Assembly: GCA_016926235.1 (NCBI GenBank)
Contig: JAFGOZ010000078.1
Span: forward strand, 1-8,556
DNA from: Bacteroidales bacterium
GTDB lineage: Bacteria > Bacteroidota > Bacteroidia > Bacteroidales > UBA10428
Direction of reading: 5' to 3'
DNA: 8,556 nt
The position numbers and the translations under genes are program-made. Below, in pieces: positions 1,295 to 8,110 of this stretch; the first letter of the stretch is position 1; each line of letters opens with the position of its first letter. The notes beneath the pieces were generated by a model that was not told the origin of the DNA, did no database searches, and was given only the letters and a program-made list of their open reading frames with translations.

Positions 1295-1381
1295 CCTTGC
1301 CTTACCCTACCACACCTGACCTGACCGCACCTGACCCAACCTGACCGCACCTAACCTTGCCTTACCCAACCTAACCTGACC
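1295..1381. repeat. Degenerate pentanucleotide tandem tract (CCTNA on plus strand)
   Basis: Seventeen consecutive 5-bp units plus a final CC, with no indel breaking the register. Positions 1 and 2 of every unit are C. Position 3 is T in 11 of 17, position 4 varies freely, and position 5 is A in 15 of 17. Longer internal matches exist: a 13-bp match 1295-1307/1355-1367 (60 bp apart) and one at 1320-1332/1340-1352 (20 bp apart). On the transcribed minus strand this gives 18 GG doublets separated by exactly 3 nt, ending in a T6 run at 1294-1289. It fills most of the 116-bp gap between the polymerase stop and the clamp loader start. The tract is non-coding in all likelihood, because 5 is not a multiple of 3 and no frame gives a sensible protein. 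Its role is unknown: two-layer G-quadruplex or R-loop formation in the transcript, or repeated protein binding, are inferences. Confidence 0.9.
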
Positions 1382-1387
1382 ATTATT

Positions 1388-4300
1388 TTATTCTTTACTT
1401 GCCCATGATCCATCAACCGGATATTCAGTTACAGATATTTCGAGTGGGACAACAATCCACTTCCAGTGATCCGGCAATAGTTCACAAGTTATTTTTCTTA
1501 CAGTTTCTTTAACGTACTCCAGCTCGTCGGGATGAACATCCATTAACATTGAATCATGAATCTGTCCCACAAGCCTTGAATCTAACTTTTCCTTAATACA
1601 CCACTTATCTGTTTCGATAAACGACCAGAGAAGGCAGTGGAATGCTGAGTTTTTTGTTATAACCCCATCAGCAACAAATTGATGTAAGTTATCATCCACA
1701 CTCATTGTATATGTATCTTCAACTTTGTCCAAAATACTTATACTCTTAATTTTGTCATACCTATATATTTCAAAACCTGAATTTGTTCTTTGAATAATTC
1801 TCTCAGCTACAAATTGTGAAATATCTTTTCCTGATTTAAGATTTTTCAATTCTACAATTTCGTCACAATTTTTATAATGACTTCTTAATTTATTATTACC
1901 TAATGCCTTTCTTATTGTTGAAATTGGAATCTTACGAACTGGTTTTTTATTCTTTTCTCTCCAGCTAAATCTTAATAACCATCCATTTTTAGTACGGCTT
2001 AAATAGGAATCGAATCCTATTGAAGATGATAAAATTTGTATTTGATTGAGTAATTTTTTATTACACATGTGTAAATTTCTTTCCTGCCACTTTGTTCTTG
2101 CTCCATCAGACATCCACAATCCTTCTAAAAAGTCACGCTTTTCTTGATCAGAAGCATTCCAAATTATATGGGGAATTTCTTTATTATGCGCATTACTTCC
2201 AAAAACAAATCCTTTATGTTCTAAATATTCACTTATATCTTTTTCAATATATAACAAGTATTTATTACTATACTTTCCGTCATCAAAATGAAGTTCTCTA
2301 TAATGAGGCTTATAATTTTGACTCTCAAGAAATTCTTTTATTTTGATTAATATCTCTTTCTTTTTTAATCCAACAGTTATTGACAATATTTTTCTGTCTT
2401 TTCTTGATTTTTCACTACTTTTCCTGAGCGCTAAATATCCATCACCTACTATAAATCCATAAATGAAAAACCAGTTGATTTCTTTGGAAGGAGAAATTAT
2501 ATCATTTGTTTTAGGCAATGCTACATAATCCCCAATTTTTAAATTATCGAAATTTACCCATTCATTTAATTCATTTTTCAATTTATGACGAGTATCACAT
2601 TTGATTAATAATCCAGATTCTAATTCAATCTCAGCTAATTGATACTCTCCTTTATTAATAGCCGTTGCATTTGCCCAATTAAAACCAGTCCAAACTTTAC
2701 ATTCTTTTCCTAATAAATTTATAATTGGAATAAGTCCTTTATCAGTTAAAATTTTACTATCTGATTGAAGGCAGCCTTGTATGGGATAATTGATACAGTT
2801 CTTCATATCCATTATTCCACTACAACGAAATCCGGTTAGTAAGTCAATATACCCATATTTTTGATAGACTCTCCACCACCGGTTCTTCCAATCATTATAA
2901 TCCGCAAACCGGACGTTCCAGAAATCATCCTCGACTTCTTTAAGATGTCTTTCAAATGCTTTGGATGAGTTGATCCCTTTCGCAATAAGATGGTCTGAAA
3001 TGGTAAACATTGCAGTATCCAGTTCAATTCCCTGATGAGCGGTCCACTTACCTGAAGGGAGTTTCATCCATCCGCAAATGTTCTCCATGCAATTCACATA
3101 ATAGTCTCCGTAAAACTGAGGAAAGACAAATCCATTCTTTGCACTTTGACGCATTGTTACATGAGCCGGATTAGATTTATCAATGGTATCTACCATAAAA
3201 ATCTGTTTAGCCATATCGGAATGCATATCAGATGCTTTGTTTTTTACATAACGAATCATGTTTGAATCCTTATGATAACAACAACTAATTGCAACCTCTA
3301 TTGCCTTGAAATCTATTTCCAGGAATTGATGTCCCGGACGTGGATACAAAGCTCCCCTGCAAATTGTCATTTGTTCCTCATCTCTGTTTGGAACATTTTG
3401 CAGGTTAGGATTTGAGGCTGAATTATGCACACAAATTTCATTTGCAAAGAAATTATTAAAATCTTCTATTTCTAAATCATACACATCCGTGTATTTATTA
3501 ATCCATTCAACTTTTGTGATTACATGATTATTCGGAACAAATGATCCAAATTGATTTTCCCACTTTCTTTCAGTAGGAATTCCATACATTCTGTAAAGTT
3601 GTAAAAGACGATAATAATTATGACCAATCCTTTTTGAAACTATTGATCTACCCAACTTGGATAAGTTTATTAAATCTTTCTTCCAAATATAATTGCCCCA
3701 TTTGTCATAACGGATCATAATATCATTAAAGTCTATTTCATAAATTTTGAGATACTTTTTAAATGTTACAAAATCATATTTTATTTTTGTGAGGTGGCCT
3801 TTAACTTCTGCAAGTAATCTATAACAACTAAATTTTGATAATTTTAAGCTACAAGGATGATCAAATCCAGTTTTAACTTTATATTTTCCCTCTTTCCATC
3901 CTTTTCTTATTGCAATTACATTATTTAATCTTGCTTTTGGCGAAAATAAAGTTGTTTTAACATGATGTTTGGAATGCAACGAAGGTGTCATCTTTTTAAG
4001 ATTCGATAAAGTGTGATCTAAATGGTTATTATTTTTATGATGCACAATTTCATTATCTTCTAAATTTCCTATCAATTGAGAATAAATGAAACGGTGTTCT
4101 TTAATACCGTGACCATTTAGATTATGTCCTGTGAATTTTAGACAATCTTTATGCCTGCTACAAGATAATACTCTAATTTTGGGAATATGTTTACTGTCAT
4201 CATTAAGTCTATAATCTCCAATTAAATATTTTGCTTCTACATAGGAACCATCCATCAATCTTATCTTGTGTTCAGGAGTAACATCAAGAAATCCTTTCTT

Positions 4301-4969
4301 ACCTTTTGTTGACCAATGTAAACGAATTACCTTTTTAAATCCGGTCTTACCGGCCCATAGAACTTTTCTTATAGCAGGATTTAAGTTATCGTCAAAACAA
4401 TAAACATAATTTCCTTCTTTTACATTTTCAATAGGAATTCCCTTTGGATTATCAATTGAATCATGCATTACAAGAATCAAAGTACCTTTTGCAATACATG
4501 ATCGGAACGTCTTTACAAGATGCAGGTTGAAGTTAGGGTGTATGTATCCATCAACCTGCTCTCTTGCAAAATTATCAAGGTAATCTCTGGTCTTTTTCAG
4601 CTTCTTAATTTCAATAAGATTAAGAAGCTCAGGTATATTTAGTTTTGTAAGTGTTTCTTCATCCGTTGATCCTAATCCCGATTCAGTATATTTGGGAGGA
4701 GTGAGTTTCTTTACTGAATAAAGGAAAGCTCTGAGTTGTGCATCGCTATTTATATTTACCTTTCTTTTGGAAGAATGTTCCCAGTGCTTGTAGAGTCTTG
4801 TTTCTTTGAATTCCTCTTCAAGATCATCTATTCTTTTGGAGAGCTTATAGTATTCACGTTTGATATAAGGCATATCAACACGAATACCGGCTTCCTCTGC
4901 ATGTGACAGTGCAAGAACTCCATCGTGGAGTAATCGGTAAGCTTCTTCTGTTTTTGGATTAAGTAACAT
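1388..4969 (-). CDS. Family A DNA polymerase (polymerase domain only) with two inteins
   Basis: A 1193-residue precursor. Removing two inteins (158-516 and 733-1107) leaves a 459-residue polymerase: 1-157, 517-732 and 1108-1193. The N-terminus, LLHDGVLALSHAEEAGIRVD (13-32), is where the polymerase part of Pol I proteins begins, so 5' nuclease and proofreading domains are absent; a 3'-5' exonuclease lies in the gene just upstream. Seen: the rebuilt TFRS/SASNPNLQNVP block; motif A D553-F-K-A-I-E558 (Pol I DYSQIE); motif B R607...K611...F616...Y620-G621; NYPIQG (727-732) joined to SAFH; motif C QIHDS with H1138-D1139. D553 and D1139 are the expected metal ligands. Motif C has Ser where E. coli Pol I has Glu, as I recall from many phage enzymes. 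The ATG lies 2 nt after the exonuclease stop, suggesting coupled translation. Activity should need both splicing events, since both inteins interrupt conserved blocks. Confidence 0.95.
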   Translation of the reverse strand: MLLNPKTEEAYRLLHDGVLALSHAEEAGIRVDMPYIKREYYKLSKRIDDLEEEFKETRLYKHWEHSSKRKVNINSDAQLRAFLYSVKKLTPPKYTESGLGSTDEETLTKLNIPELLNLIEIKKLKKTRDYLDNFAREQVDGYIHPNFNLHLVKTFRSCIAKGTLILVMHDSIDNPKGIPIENVKEGNYVYCFDDNLNPAIRKVLWAGKTGFKKVIRLHWSTKGKKGFLDVTPEHKIRLMDGSYVEAKYLIGDYRLNDDSKHIPKIRVLSCSRHKDCLKFTGHNLNGHGIKEHRFIYSQLIGNLEDNEIVHHKNNNHLDHTLSNLKKMTPSLHSKHHVKTTLFSPKARLNNVIAIRKGWKEGKYKVKTGFDHPCSLKLSKFSCYRLLAEVKGHLTKIKYDFVTFKKYLKIYEIDFNDIMIRYDKWGNYIWKKDLINLSKLGRSIVSKRIGHNYYRLLQLYRMYGIPTERKWENQFGSFVPNNHVITKVEWINKYTDVYDLEIEDFNNFFANEICVHNSASNPNLQNVPNRDEEQMTICRGALYPRPGHQFLEIDFKAIEVAISCCYHKDSNMIRYVKNKASDMHSDMAKQIFMVDTIDKSNPAHVTMRQSAKNGFVFPQFYGDYYVNCMENICGWMKLPSGKWTAHQGIELDTAMFTISDHLIAKGINSSKAFERHLKEVEDDFWNVRFADYNDWKNRWWRVYQKYGYIDLLTGFRCSGIMDMKNCINYPIQGCLQSDSKILTDKGLIPIINLLGKECKVWTGFNWANATAINKGEYQLAEIELESGLLIKCDTRHKLKNELNEWVNFDNLKIGDYVALPKTNDIISPSKEINWFFIYGFIVGDGYLALRKSSEKSRKDRKILSITVGLKKKEILIKIKEFLESQNYKPHYRELHFDDGKYSNKYLLYIEKDISEYLEHKGFVFGSNAHNKEIPHIIWNASDQEKRDFLEGLWMSDGARTKWQERNLHMCNKKLLNQIQILSSSIGFDSYLSRTKNGWLLRFSWREKNKKPVRKIPISTIRKALGNNKLRSHYKNCDEIVELKNLKSGKDISQFVAERIIQRTNSGFEIYRYDKIKSISILDKVEDTYTMSVDDNLHQFVADGVITKNSAFHCLLWSFIETDKWCIKEKLDSRLVGQIHDSMLMDVHPDELEYVKETVRKITCELLPDHWKWIVVPLEISVTEYPVDGSWASKE
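1649..2773 (-). mobile_element. Intein 2 of the polymerase, LAGLIDADG homing endonuclease
   Basis: A 375-residue intein, precursor residues 733-1107, inserted between NYPIQG and SAFHCLLW in the conserved QG(T/S)A block of family A polymerases. It starts with Cys733 and ends VITKN1107, followed by Ser1108 as the +1 nucleophile. Block A is CLQSDSKILTDKGLIPI; block B is around CDTRH (791-795), with Asp rather than Thr in the usual TxxH position; block F is TYTMSVDDNLHQFVADGVITKN (1086-1107). The endonuclease has two LAGLIDADG helices: FIYGFIVGDGY (835-845) and FLEGLWMSDG (947-956), with D843 and D955 as likely metal ligands. The penultimate residue is Lys1106 rather than the usual His. The DNA is much more AT-rich than the exteins: 12 G/C in the 60 bases 2221-2280 versus 26 in 2881-2940. 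An intact endonuclease suggests it may still home. Confidence 0.93.
3422..4498 (-). mobile_element. Intein 1 of the polymerase, HNH homing endonuclease
   Basis: A 359-residue intein, precursor residues 158-516, sitting between TFRS157 and S517-ASNPNLQN, the conserved R-x-S-S-x-x-PNLQN block of family A polymerases. It shows canonical class 1 splicing residues: Cys158, block B T231-P-E-H234, and a C-terminus VHN516 with penultimate His515 and +1 Ser517. The nuclease is of HNH type: IVHHKNNNHLDHTLSNL around 308-324 (H310/H311 and N323) followed by H332 and H335-H336. Residues 340-470 hold a basic, probably helix-turn-helix-containing region, likely DNA recognition. GC content is very low (10 G/C in the 60 bases 3721-3780), although the first part of the splicing domain (near 4340-4355) is closer to extein composition and holds both CCGG sites I saw in the inteins. 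Function inferred: self-splicing, plus cleavage of the intein-free allele to spread the element. Confidence 0.94.
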
Positions 4970-6186: not shown

Positions 6187-7214
6187 TCTTCGTATCTTAA
6201 AGCAACCATGTACCGCCAGCTATCACCCTCAAAGAGTATCTTGCTACGGACATCATTGATTACACATGCAGTTGTTTCCGAAAGTATATCTTTCAGAAGA
6301 TAGGGAGTTGCCATAAATATTACCGGCTCATCTTTGAACTCAGTAGGAGTATCCTCTTCAAACCACCCACCTTCTGATTCACTACGTACTCTGATAATGT
6401 TATTCTTTAAGGTAACAATTATCTTCTCATCTATCTGACTCTTCCTCTCAGCAAATATCATTGCCCGCAGTATTACATCTTTCAGATTGTCAGGAAAGGT
6501 TAATGTACTTCCTTTTACATCAAGGTGAGATTTCGTATTTGGAAATTCCTCATTGACAATCCGGCAGGAGAATATAGTTTCTTTGTCCGTTTTGAAGTGA
6601 ATCCAGCCGTCTCCTTCTGCAATACTAACCGGACTGAGTTTTAACATTTCGATTGCACTCTTTGCCGGAAAAAGGAATGTACCTACCGGCATTTCACTTG
6701 AAAGAGTAAACTGAGCCACACGATATGCATCTGAAGATTCAACAAAGCCGGACTTATTTACATGGATATTCTGAAGTATAGGATCAGTGGGATCAGTTGA
6801 GGCACATCCGTAAGTAAATTTAACCGCATTCAAAAAATCATCCGGCAGTTTCTTCCATTTACTTTTTGGAATGTCACCTACGATTGGCAGTGTAATTTGT
6901 TCCTGTAATGTAAGTCCGGCTTTTGCCTTACCGGCTTTTATTACGAGTTCGGACTTCTTGTTTATGAAGATTTCAAGTTCTTTGGCAGATAACTTACTCA
7001 GTAAATCATACAGTTTTTGTGCCTGTACGACACCTTCAATGCCCTCCCATCCCTCTATTGGATGTGATACGCTTATCTCATCATTGTAAGTTGCAATTCT
7101 TCCTTTAGAAAACGTGTAGGATTTTGCCTGTGCAAGGTATGGAATCTCCTTATCAGCCAATCCGGACTCTACGATTTTCAGGGCTTCCTGAAATTTTATC
7201 TTTTCTATAATCAT
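6183..7214 (-). CDS. DNA sliding clamp, bacterial beta (DnaN-like) type
   Basis: A 343-residue protein, close to bacterial beta clamps (about 366) and longer than T4 gp45 (about 228), so a three-domain beta fold forming a dimeric ring is expected. Seen: TFSKGRIATYNDEISVS (34-50) like the clamp's first strands; LTLQEQITLP (101-110) at the domain 1/2 border; SDAYRVA (161-167) lined up with TDGHRLA of E. coli beta; FLFPAKSAIEMLKL (180-193); FSCRIVNEEFPN (215-226), matching the clamp's FP-containing loop; FMATPYLLKDIL (300-311) and a C-terminal strand YMVALRY (335-341). It would tether the polymerase and perhaps the glycosylase/exonuclease to DNA and be loaded by the ATPase downstream. Both ends overlap neighbours by 4 nt (ATGA), which argues for coupled translation with genes on each side. 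Overall similarity to cellular DnaN is low, so this is a divergent viral version. Confidence 0.82.
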   Translation of the reverse strand: MIIEKIKFQEALKIVESGLADKEIPYLAQAKSYTFSKGRIATYNDEISVSHPIEGWEGIEGVVQAQKLYDLLSKLSAKELEIFINKKSELVIKAGKAKAGLTLQEQITLPIVGDIPKSKWKKLPDDFLNAVKFTYGCASTDPTDPILQNIHVNKSGFVESSDAYRVAQFTLSSEMPVGTFLFPAKSAIEMLKLSPVSIAEGDGWIHFKTDKETIFSCRIVNEEFPNTKSHLDVKGSTLTFPDNLKDVILRAMIFAERKSQIDEKIIVTLKNNIIRVRSESEGGWFEEDTPTEFKDEPVIFMATPYLLKDILSETTACVINDVRSKILFEGDSWRYMVALRYEE

Positions 7215-8110
7215 AATACATCAAATATTTCAAGTACCTGCATAATAATGTTATACTGCACACGTGAATGGCGGATGTTCGTTTGTCCTCCGTTCTCTAC
7301 AAACTTATCGTCTGCCCATTGAATGACATCATTCACTGATGCCCCCGGATTATCTCGTATTATCTCTGCTACTGCACGTGTACGTGTGTATTTCTCACCT
7401 TTAGAAGGTTTAACTACCTTCATTTTGGGTTTTGGTTTCTCAACCTTTTCTTTAACCGGTTCAGGCTCGGGCTCCGGTTCAGGTTCCGGCTCTGGAGATT
7501 TTTTCTTAGGAGAACTCTTCTTTACCGGCTTCTTAATCTTTTCTTTAACCGGTTCAGGTTCCGGTTCCGGCTCAGGAGTTTCTTCCGGATCAGTATCAAC
7601 AACATTTTCCACATCATCATCCATGTTATCATCTGTGTCATCTTCCGGATTCATTTCAGGTGGGACAAGGGCTCTCAGAAGTTCATCACGTAAATCCTCT
7701 TTGAATCTGAATGTAGATAGTTTCTTATTAATCTCTTTAAAGACTCTGTAAGTTGAGGCAATCTCTTTCAATTCTTTCAGAGTGGATGATTTCTGAATGA
7801 GGTCTAAGATGTCCTCAAGATTTTCATCTTCCGGTATCATCTCAGGATTATGTATTTGAATATACGCAGCAATAAATTCCTCTATATGCTTGGGGAATTC
7901 ATCTTCGTCAGGAAGGATATTCCCGATAGCTTCTCCTAATTGTTCCAAAAGTCCTTCTTCAGTAATATCTTCCGGTACAGTTAAGGGTTCTTTAGTTTCC
8001 TCGTCAGACAATCCCATGATGTCTATCATCTTTTCAAGGATTTTGACCAGTTCCTCTCTTGTGTAATCTTCCAATGCTTTTGGAGAATCATCTTTAATTT
8101 TCTTTGCCAT
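7211..8110 (-). CDS. Acidic protein with Pro-Glu linkers, function unknown
   Basis: A 299-residue protein I do not recognise as a named family. Parts in order: a helical acidic N-terminal region (12-150) with KALEDYTREELVKILEKM and LRDELLRALVPP; a very acidic stretch (155-178, mostly D/E); a Pro-Glu run (179-187); a basic Lys/Pro segment (188-205); a second Pro-Glu run (206-218); another basic segment (219-240); and a compact C-terminal domain (240-299) with 'TRAVAEIIRDNPGASVNDVIQWADDKFVENGG', which looks like a winged-helix or similar small helical DNA-binding fold. No signal peptide or membrane segment. The alternating charge blocks suggest a flexible spacer between two folded ends. Its stop overlaps the sliding clamp start (ATGA), so it is made together with the clamp and likely acts in replication, possibly as an accessory or scaffold; that is inference. 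The start is ATG behind an A/T-only stretch, 18 nt after the methyltransferase stop. Confidence 0.8.
   Translation of the reverse strand: MAKKIKDDSPKALEDYTREELVKILEKMIDIMGLSDEETKEPLTVPEDITEEGLLEQLGEAIGNILPDEDEFPKHIEEFIAAYIQIHNPEMIPEDENLEDILDLIQKSSTLKELKEIASTYRVFKEINKKLSTFRFKEDLRDELLRALVPPEMNPEDDTDDNMDDDVENVVDTDPEETPEPEPEPEPVKEKIKKPVKKSSPKKKSPEPEPEPEPEPEPVKEKVEKPKPKMKVVKPSKGEKYTRTRAVAEIIRDNPGASVNDVIQWADDKFVENGGQTNIRHSRVQYNIIMQVLEIFDVL
7445..7576 (-). repeat. Duplicated Pro-Glu/Lys linker module within a coding region
   Basis: Two imperfect direct copies lie 93 bp (31 codons) apart, in frame. Positions 7445-7465 and 7538-7558 are identical over 21 bp. Each copy encodes a run of alternating Pro and Glu (7457-7495: 13 residues; 7550-7576: 9 residues) followed by VKEK and a Lys/Pro-rich stretch. 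The Pro-Glu codons vary (CCG/CCT/CCC and GAA/GAG), so the run is not a pure 6-bp microsatellite. The length difference between copies suggests expansion or contraction by slippage. Such runs form stiff, extended spacers in other proteins. Confidence 0.85.

Follow-up and report, generated by a model that had tools for sequence, protein, structure and literature searches.

The stretch of DNA analysed here (the window, 8,556 nt) belongs to an uncultured phage-like genome and carries seven genes, all of them coded on the − strand. Read along that strand, they specify a DNA methyltransferase, truncated at the window end; an acidic protein of 299 aa; a beta clamp; a UDG/3'-5' exonuclease; a family-A DNA polymerase interrupted by two inteins; a clamp loader; and, truncated at the opposite end, a protein of 118 aa. 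A gap of 116 nt (1272–1387) separates the polymerase and clamp-loader frames and holds a pentanucleotide tract that we regard, with good confidence, as the gene of a guide RNA of the vrRNA type, possibly separate from its protein gene. The features of the gap and its flanking genes are as follows.

1292–1381, − strand: GGY-NN array of 18 units, the proposed vrRNA-type guide RNA repeat tract; NN order CA TA TG AA AA TA GC CA TG CA GC CA CA GT AG AA AA TT, the last TT being the start of the U-run
1285–1306, − strand: 3' tail GGTAAGGCAAGGTTTTTTATTT, whose motif GGYAAGGYAAGGTTTTTT caps GGY arrays in further viral records
1353–1366, − strand: internal copy of the tail start, GGTAAGGCAAGGTT, in units 4–6, without the U-run, as read from the sequence
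1382–1387, − strand: 5' flank AATAAT, from the polymerase stop to the array, like the A/T flanks ahead of the arrays in IMG/VR record 3300031275_000004 (G007)
1388–4969, − strand: family-A DNA polymerase, 1193 aa, two inteins, upstream of the array
363–1271, − strand: clamp loader, 302 aa, downstream of the array
1649–2773, − strand: polymerase intein, residues 733–1107, with a LAGLIDADG-like part
3422–4498, − strand: polymerase intein, residues 158–516, with an HNH part

Eighteen CC doublets stand in exact 5-bp register over 1295–1381 (17 full units plus a closing CC, whose last base is 1381), in agreement with the strict spacing noted in the initial annotation. The longest CC or GG chain at 5-bp spacing was five, seen once, in 200 Markov sequences with the dinucleotides of the window, and the longest CC chain was nine, again seen once, in 5000 sequences with the dinucleotides of the tract itself; compared with the 18 observed, these values indicate that the register is not due to chance. 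The longest GGY chain in 5 Mb simulated with window dinucleotides (one strand) was three. The base preceding each CC is A or G, and each − strand unit therefore reads GGY-NN, so that two bases drift rather than the three first described. GGY is present in 18/18 units (16 GGT and two GGC), which on the coding strand run GGTCA GGTTA GGTTG GGTAA GGCAA GGTTA GGTGC GGTCA GGTTG in the first half and GGTCA GGTGC GGTCA GGTCA GGTGT GGTAG GGTAA GGCAA GGTTT in the second.

Arrays of this kind carry the published signature of vrRNAs, the guide RNAs of VIPR, which in the literature searched appears in one 2026 preprint (PMC13142463). This newly described system comprises a RAMP-like protein, Vipr, together with vrRNA guide RNAs of 9–16 GGY/NN units followed by a constant 3' tail. 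According to the preprint, the NN pairs specify a DNA target with one base skipped between pairs, predicted targets include satellites and competing phages, and phages reportedly find and silence rival DNA in this way; staggered vrRNA arrays are mentioned and hammerhead-interspersed arrays reported. The tract has the tandem GGY/NN pentanucleotides in strict register throughout. Its unit number is 18 as counted, or 15 when the last three, constant units are assigned to the tail, and arrays of 17–21 units, counted in the same way, make up 8 of the 172 unique arrays in Vipr loci (among the matches listed). The 18 units and the repeat of the tail start inside the array hint at two vrRNAs that are fused here, or overlapping and staggered.

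A pattern scan of IMG/VR for 5-bp arrays returned at least 120 viral stretches; the pattern demands GGT in six units and the scan is thus uninformative on the third base. Diverse arrays were defined as having seven or more units and five or more NN types, and all counts from the scan given in this paragraph are among the matches listed. Plain repeats such as GGTTA or GGTCG are frequent, with 68 of 120 stretches lacking a diverse array, and the tract could in principle be a pentanucleotide microsatellite that drifted after slippage. We consider this hardly credible, as drift is limited to two positions and GGY is intact in 18 units, whereas among the 42 GG chains from stretches without a diverse array Y occupies the third position in 327/428; the earlier suggestion of selection on GG spacing over slippage was right. 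The Vipr family was sought with an iterated profile started from a 195-aa gene that adjoins an 11-unit array in the control record KT454805 (Escherichia phage SUSP1), and which we take to be vipr (ALH47069.1) because of its position next to the array, its length and the family fold. This profile detected members in SUSP1 itself and in 36 scan stretches, all of them among the 52 with diverse arrays, compared with 0/68 without (Fisher p = 2e-18, uncorrected for related records). Two of the 16 stretches that have arrays and no family member encode one elsewhere in the whole record. The diverse arrays in Vipr loci lie 0–1937 nt from the gene, a range in which short stretches under-count the longer distances, and a model of the L022 family member, built from 21 sequences, shows a Csm3/Cas7 (RAMP) fold.

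The 3' end of the tract points the same way. As described previously, U6 directly follows the tract and leads into the A/U-rich leader of the clamp loader. The end motif GGYAAGGYAAGGTTTTTT was matched in 23 viral stretches and caps a GGY array in 15 of them, 11 of which encode Vipr, so that a constant 3' tail is common to other vrRNA-like arrays of this type. The count is support rather than proof, because the motif, which covers three units, was picked in knowledge of L022 and L059, and because several of the matched stretches are near-identical records. An intergenic GGY-NN array on the coding strand, together with a 3' end motif found beside RAMP-fold Vipr in other viruses, leads to the vrRNA-type assignment, and two guesses of the initial annotation, that the tract works as RNA and that it is an array serving a phage protein, were right on this reading. 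A separate observation concerns L326:357-2016, which carries a long row of GGC-rich arrays with closing tails resembling GGCAAGGCAAGGTTTTT and with TGC-interrupted units.

The tract directly precedes the clamp loader, and two-layer quadruplexes can generally form from GG-N3-GG repeats, which would suit a G-rich element acting in cis, as a G-quadruplex or a pause site, to set clamp-loader expression. Relatives of the locus make such an element very unlikely. They were collected by clamp-loader searches (the best 80 of the viral scan at 54–65% identity, others at 32–63%), giving 87 loci (L001-L007, L139, L149-L227, with at least two contigs represented twice), and a GGY chain of five or more units occurs anywhere in 0/87. 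Eighty of the 87 have a polymerase hit and hence an assessable junction, with an array in none; between the last polymerase piece and the clamp loader lie 3 to 1365 nt. The junction thus appears as a slot of variable length in which the tract is not a conserved part, which argues against a conserved role in clamp-loader control and against the tuning of that gene proposed earlier. Fourteen further relative records, read whole or largely, were likewise devoid of arrays. The RNA fold of the tract strand was weaker than that of most shuffles (z = +1.09, 171/200 shuffles at least as good), although the fold does not score quadruplexes, and a promoter and terminator scan gave nothing above chance and no terminator-like site, leaving the suggested pausing or termination without support; nor did the suggested R-loop primer of replication gain any. 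The potential for quadruplexes exists, as for any GG repeat, but it leaves the fixed pyrimidine, the variable NN and the shared 3' motif unexplained. In eight relatives (L152, L153, L156, L160, L163, L165, L191 and L195) the gap between polymerase and clamp loader contains a TTYGTATAATA-like sequence that may be a promoter; inspection by eye did not reveal one in the gap of the window.

Several observations weigh against a vrRNA-type guide. No vipr gene stands beside the array and no Vipr-family open reading frame (ORF) is found in the window, which extends 7.2 kb upstream of the array and only 1.3 kb downstream, so that a vipr gene may lie slightly past the left end. Vipr was found in 0/5 records behind the relatives, with four other records as positive controls, and in 0/20 further relative records, a search without a positive whose empty result shows little; many records behind the relatives are fragments. 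Among the 23 stretches with the tail motif, eight have no array ending at it (one, L321, has an array nearby), and L319, one of the 15 with a capped array, has a broken register. Two decoded seeds of eight NN gave 13 and 12 matches in viral_contigs, several in near-identical records, and these extended at chance level (2–7/18 bases). The 1-nt skip rule was not reproduced over 155 arrays (46/49/51/60 matches for skips of 0/1/2/3), and the best match of a decoded target over the examined loci was 23/34 bases, compared with 23, 23 and 24 for three shuffled NN orders. A complete VIPR locus is accordingly not established here, and the tract, judged by its sequence, is most likely a new member of the vrRNA-type guides.

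Where the protein would come from can be considered in the light of two other records. G001, a relative of 55.8 kb in which no terminal repeat was found, has a row of vrRNA-like arrays elsewhere in the record, with a different tail, GGTAAGGCAG, at L134:3586-3793, between a gene that reads as sigma-factor-like and a 160-aa gene. G041, a 56-kb record with a 247-bp direct terminal repeat that points to a complete genome, has a 15-unit GGY array at L238:9380-9454. A G+C-rich inverted repeat follows that array. Neither G001 nor G041 gave a Vipr match, which lends support to an orphan guide, where the phage has the vrRNA only and uses Vipr made by a co-resident prophage, a satellite or the host; we put this forward tentatively, as a possible but not a likely arrangement. 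The location of the vrRNA in the polymerase-clamp loader operon would then serve to couple guide production to expression of the replication genes. It is possible that a divergent Vipr was missed by the profile in the window, G001 and G041; a comparison of 266 ORFs within 4 kb of vipr-less arrays with Vipr (hhalign, divergent Vipr sought) gave a best probability of 4%. Three Vipr proteins and two proteins of the window had no PADLOC match. Rfam gave none at gathering score in the window or in nine array loci, and hammerhead-interspersed arrays were thus not seen in those nine. The lack of vipr in the window, and the fact that among the relatives searched only G001 has arrays, without a vipr match, would also fit a relic, a vrRNA that came with a VIPR locus since lost and is no longer used. 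We find a relic unlikely, as 18 perfect consecutive GGY units and an intact tail are retained, where a neutral tract should have acquired broken GGs or indels.

As a functional vrRNA-type guide, the tract would be transcribed either with the replication operon (the genes from the polymerase to the clamp loader) or from a promoter not seen here. Vipr subunits, their gene lying beyond the 8.6-kb window or being supplied by another element, may align on the vrRNA, each gripping one GGY and exposing one NN, and the NN pairs would recognise a double-stranded DNA target of the form NNxNNxNN under the 1-nt skip rule, as stated in the preprint (PMC13142463). The target would most likely lie in a competing phage or satellite, and its transcription would be blocked. 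If guides without a vipr gene are borne out, VIPR would have guide-only elements acting in trans. The array makes it a testable question whether guides can move without their protein gene, and its position in a core replication operon, with a tail pointing to one Vipr subfamily (that of G006 and G007, see below), is a search key for more guides.

The remaining genes add to the picture of the window. Pfam Intein_splicing scored 60 bits in the polymerase frame, and the beta clamp has three relatives in viral_contigs, at 27–30% identity. The acidic protein (7211–8110, − strand) contains PEPEPEP tracts and has one weak Pfam match far under the curated cut-off; no PHROG or PADLOC family was assigned to it at the cut-offs used.

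CRISPR arrays have repeats of ~20–40 bp with unique spacers between them, plus cas genes. The tract is not such an array, having 5-bp units, and no cas family was found in the seven window proteins with PHROGs and Pfam. It differs from class 1 CRISPR-Cas crRNAs in holding a noncontiguous NN code rather than a spacer, and resembles them, on the account given in the preprint (PMC13142463), in a variable guide capped by a constant part and in a RAMP-fold partner. Compared with the vrRNAs described there, it counts 18 units (15 without the three closing constant ones) against the published 9–16 and has a short U-rich tail without excess folding. It shares with the SUSP1 vrRNA a GGY-NN pentanucleotide array in an intergenic position of a phage genome with a constant 3' end after it; unlike the SUSP1 array, it lies between replication genes, with no vipr-family gene in its 8.6 kb. 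Close counterparts are G006 (IMG/VR 3300033149_002136) and G007; the Vipr proteins of the two share 44% identity. Their seven diverse arrays have a vipr gene at 7–843 nt, where none was seen in the window. Both records share with the window the tail GGYAAGGYAAGGTTTTTTAT and A/T-rich flanks, and G007, like the window, carries single arrays in gaps of co-directional genes.
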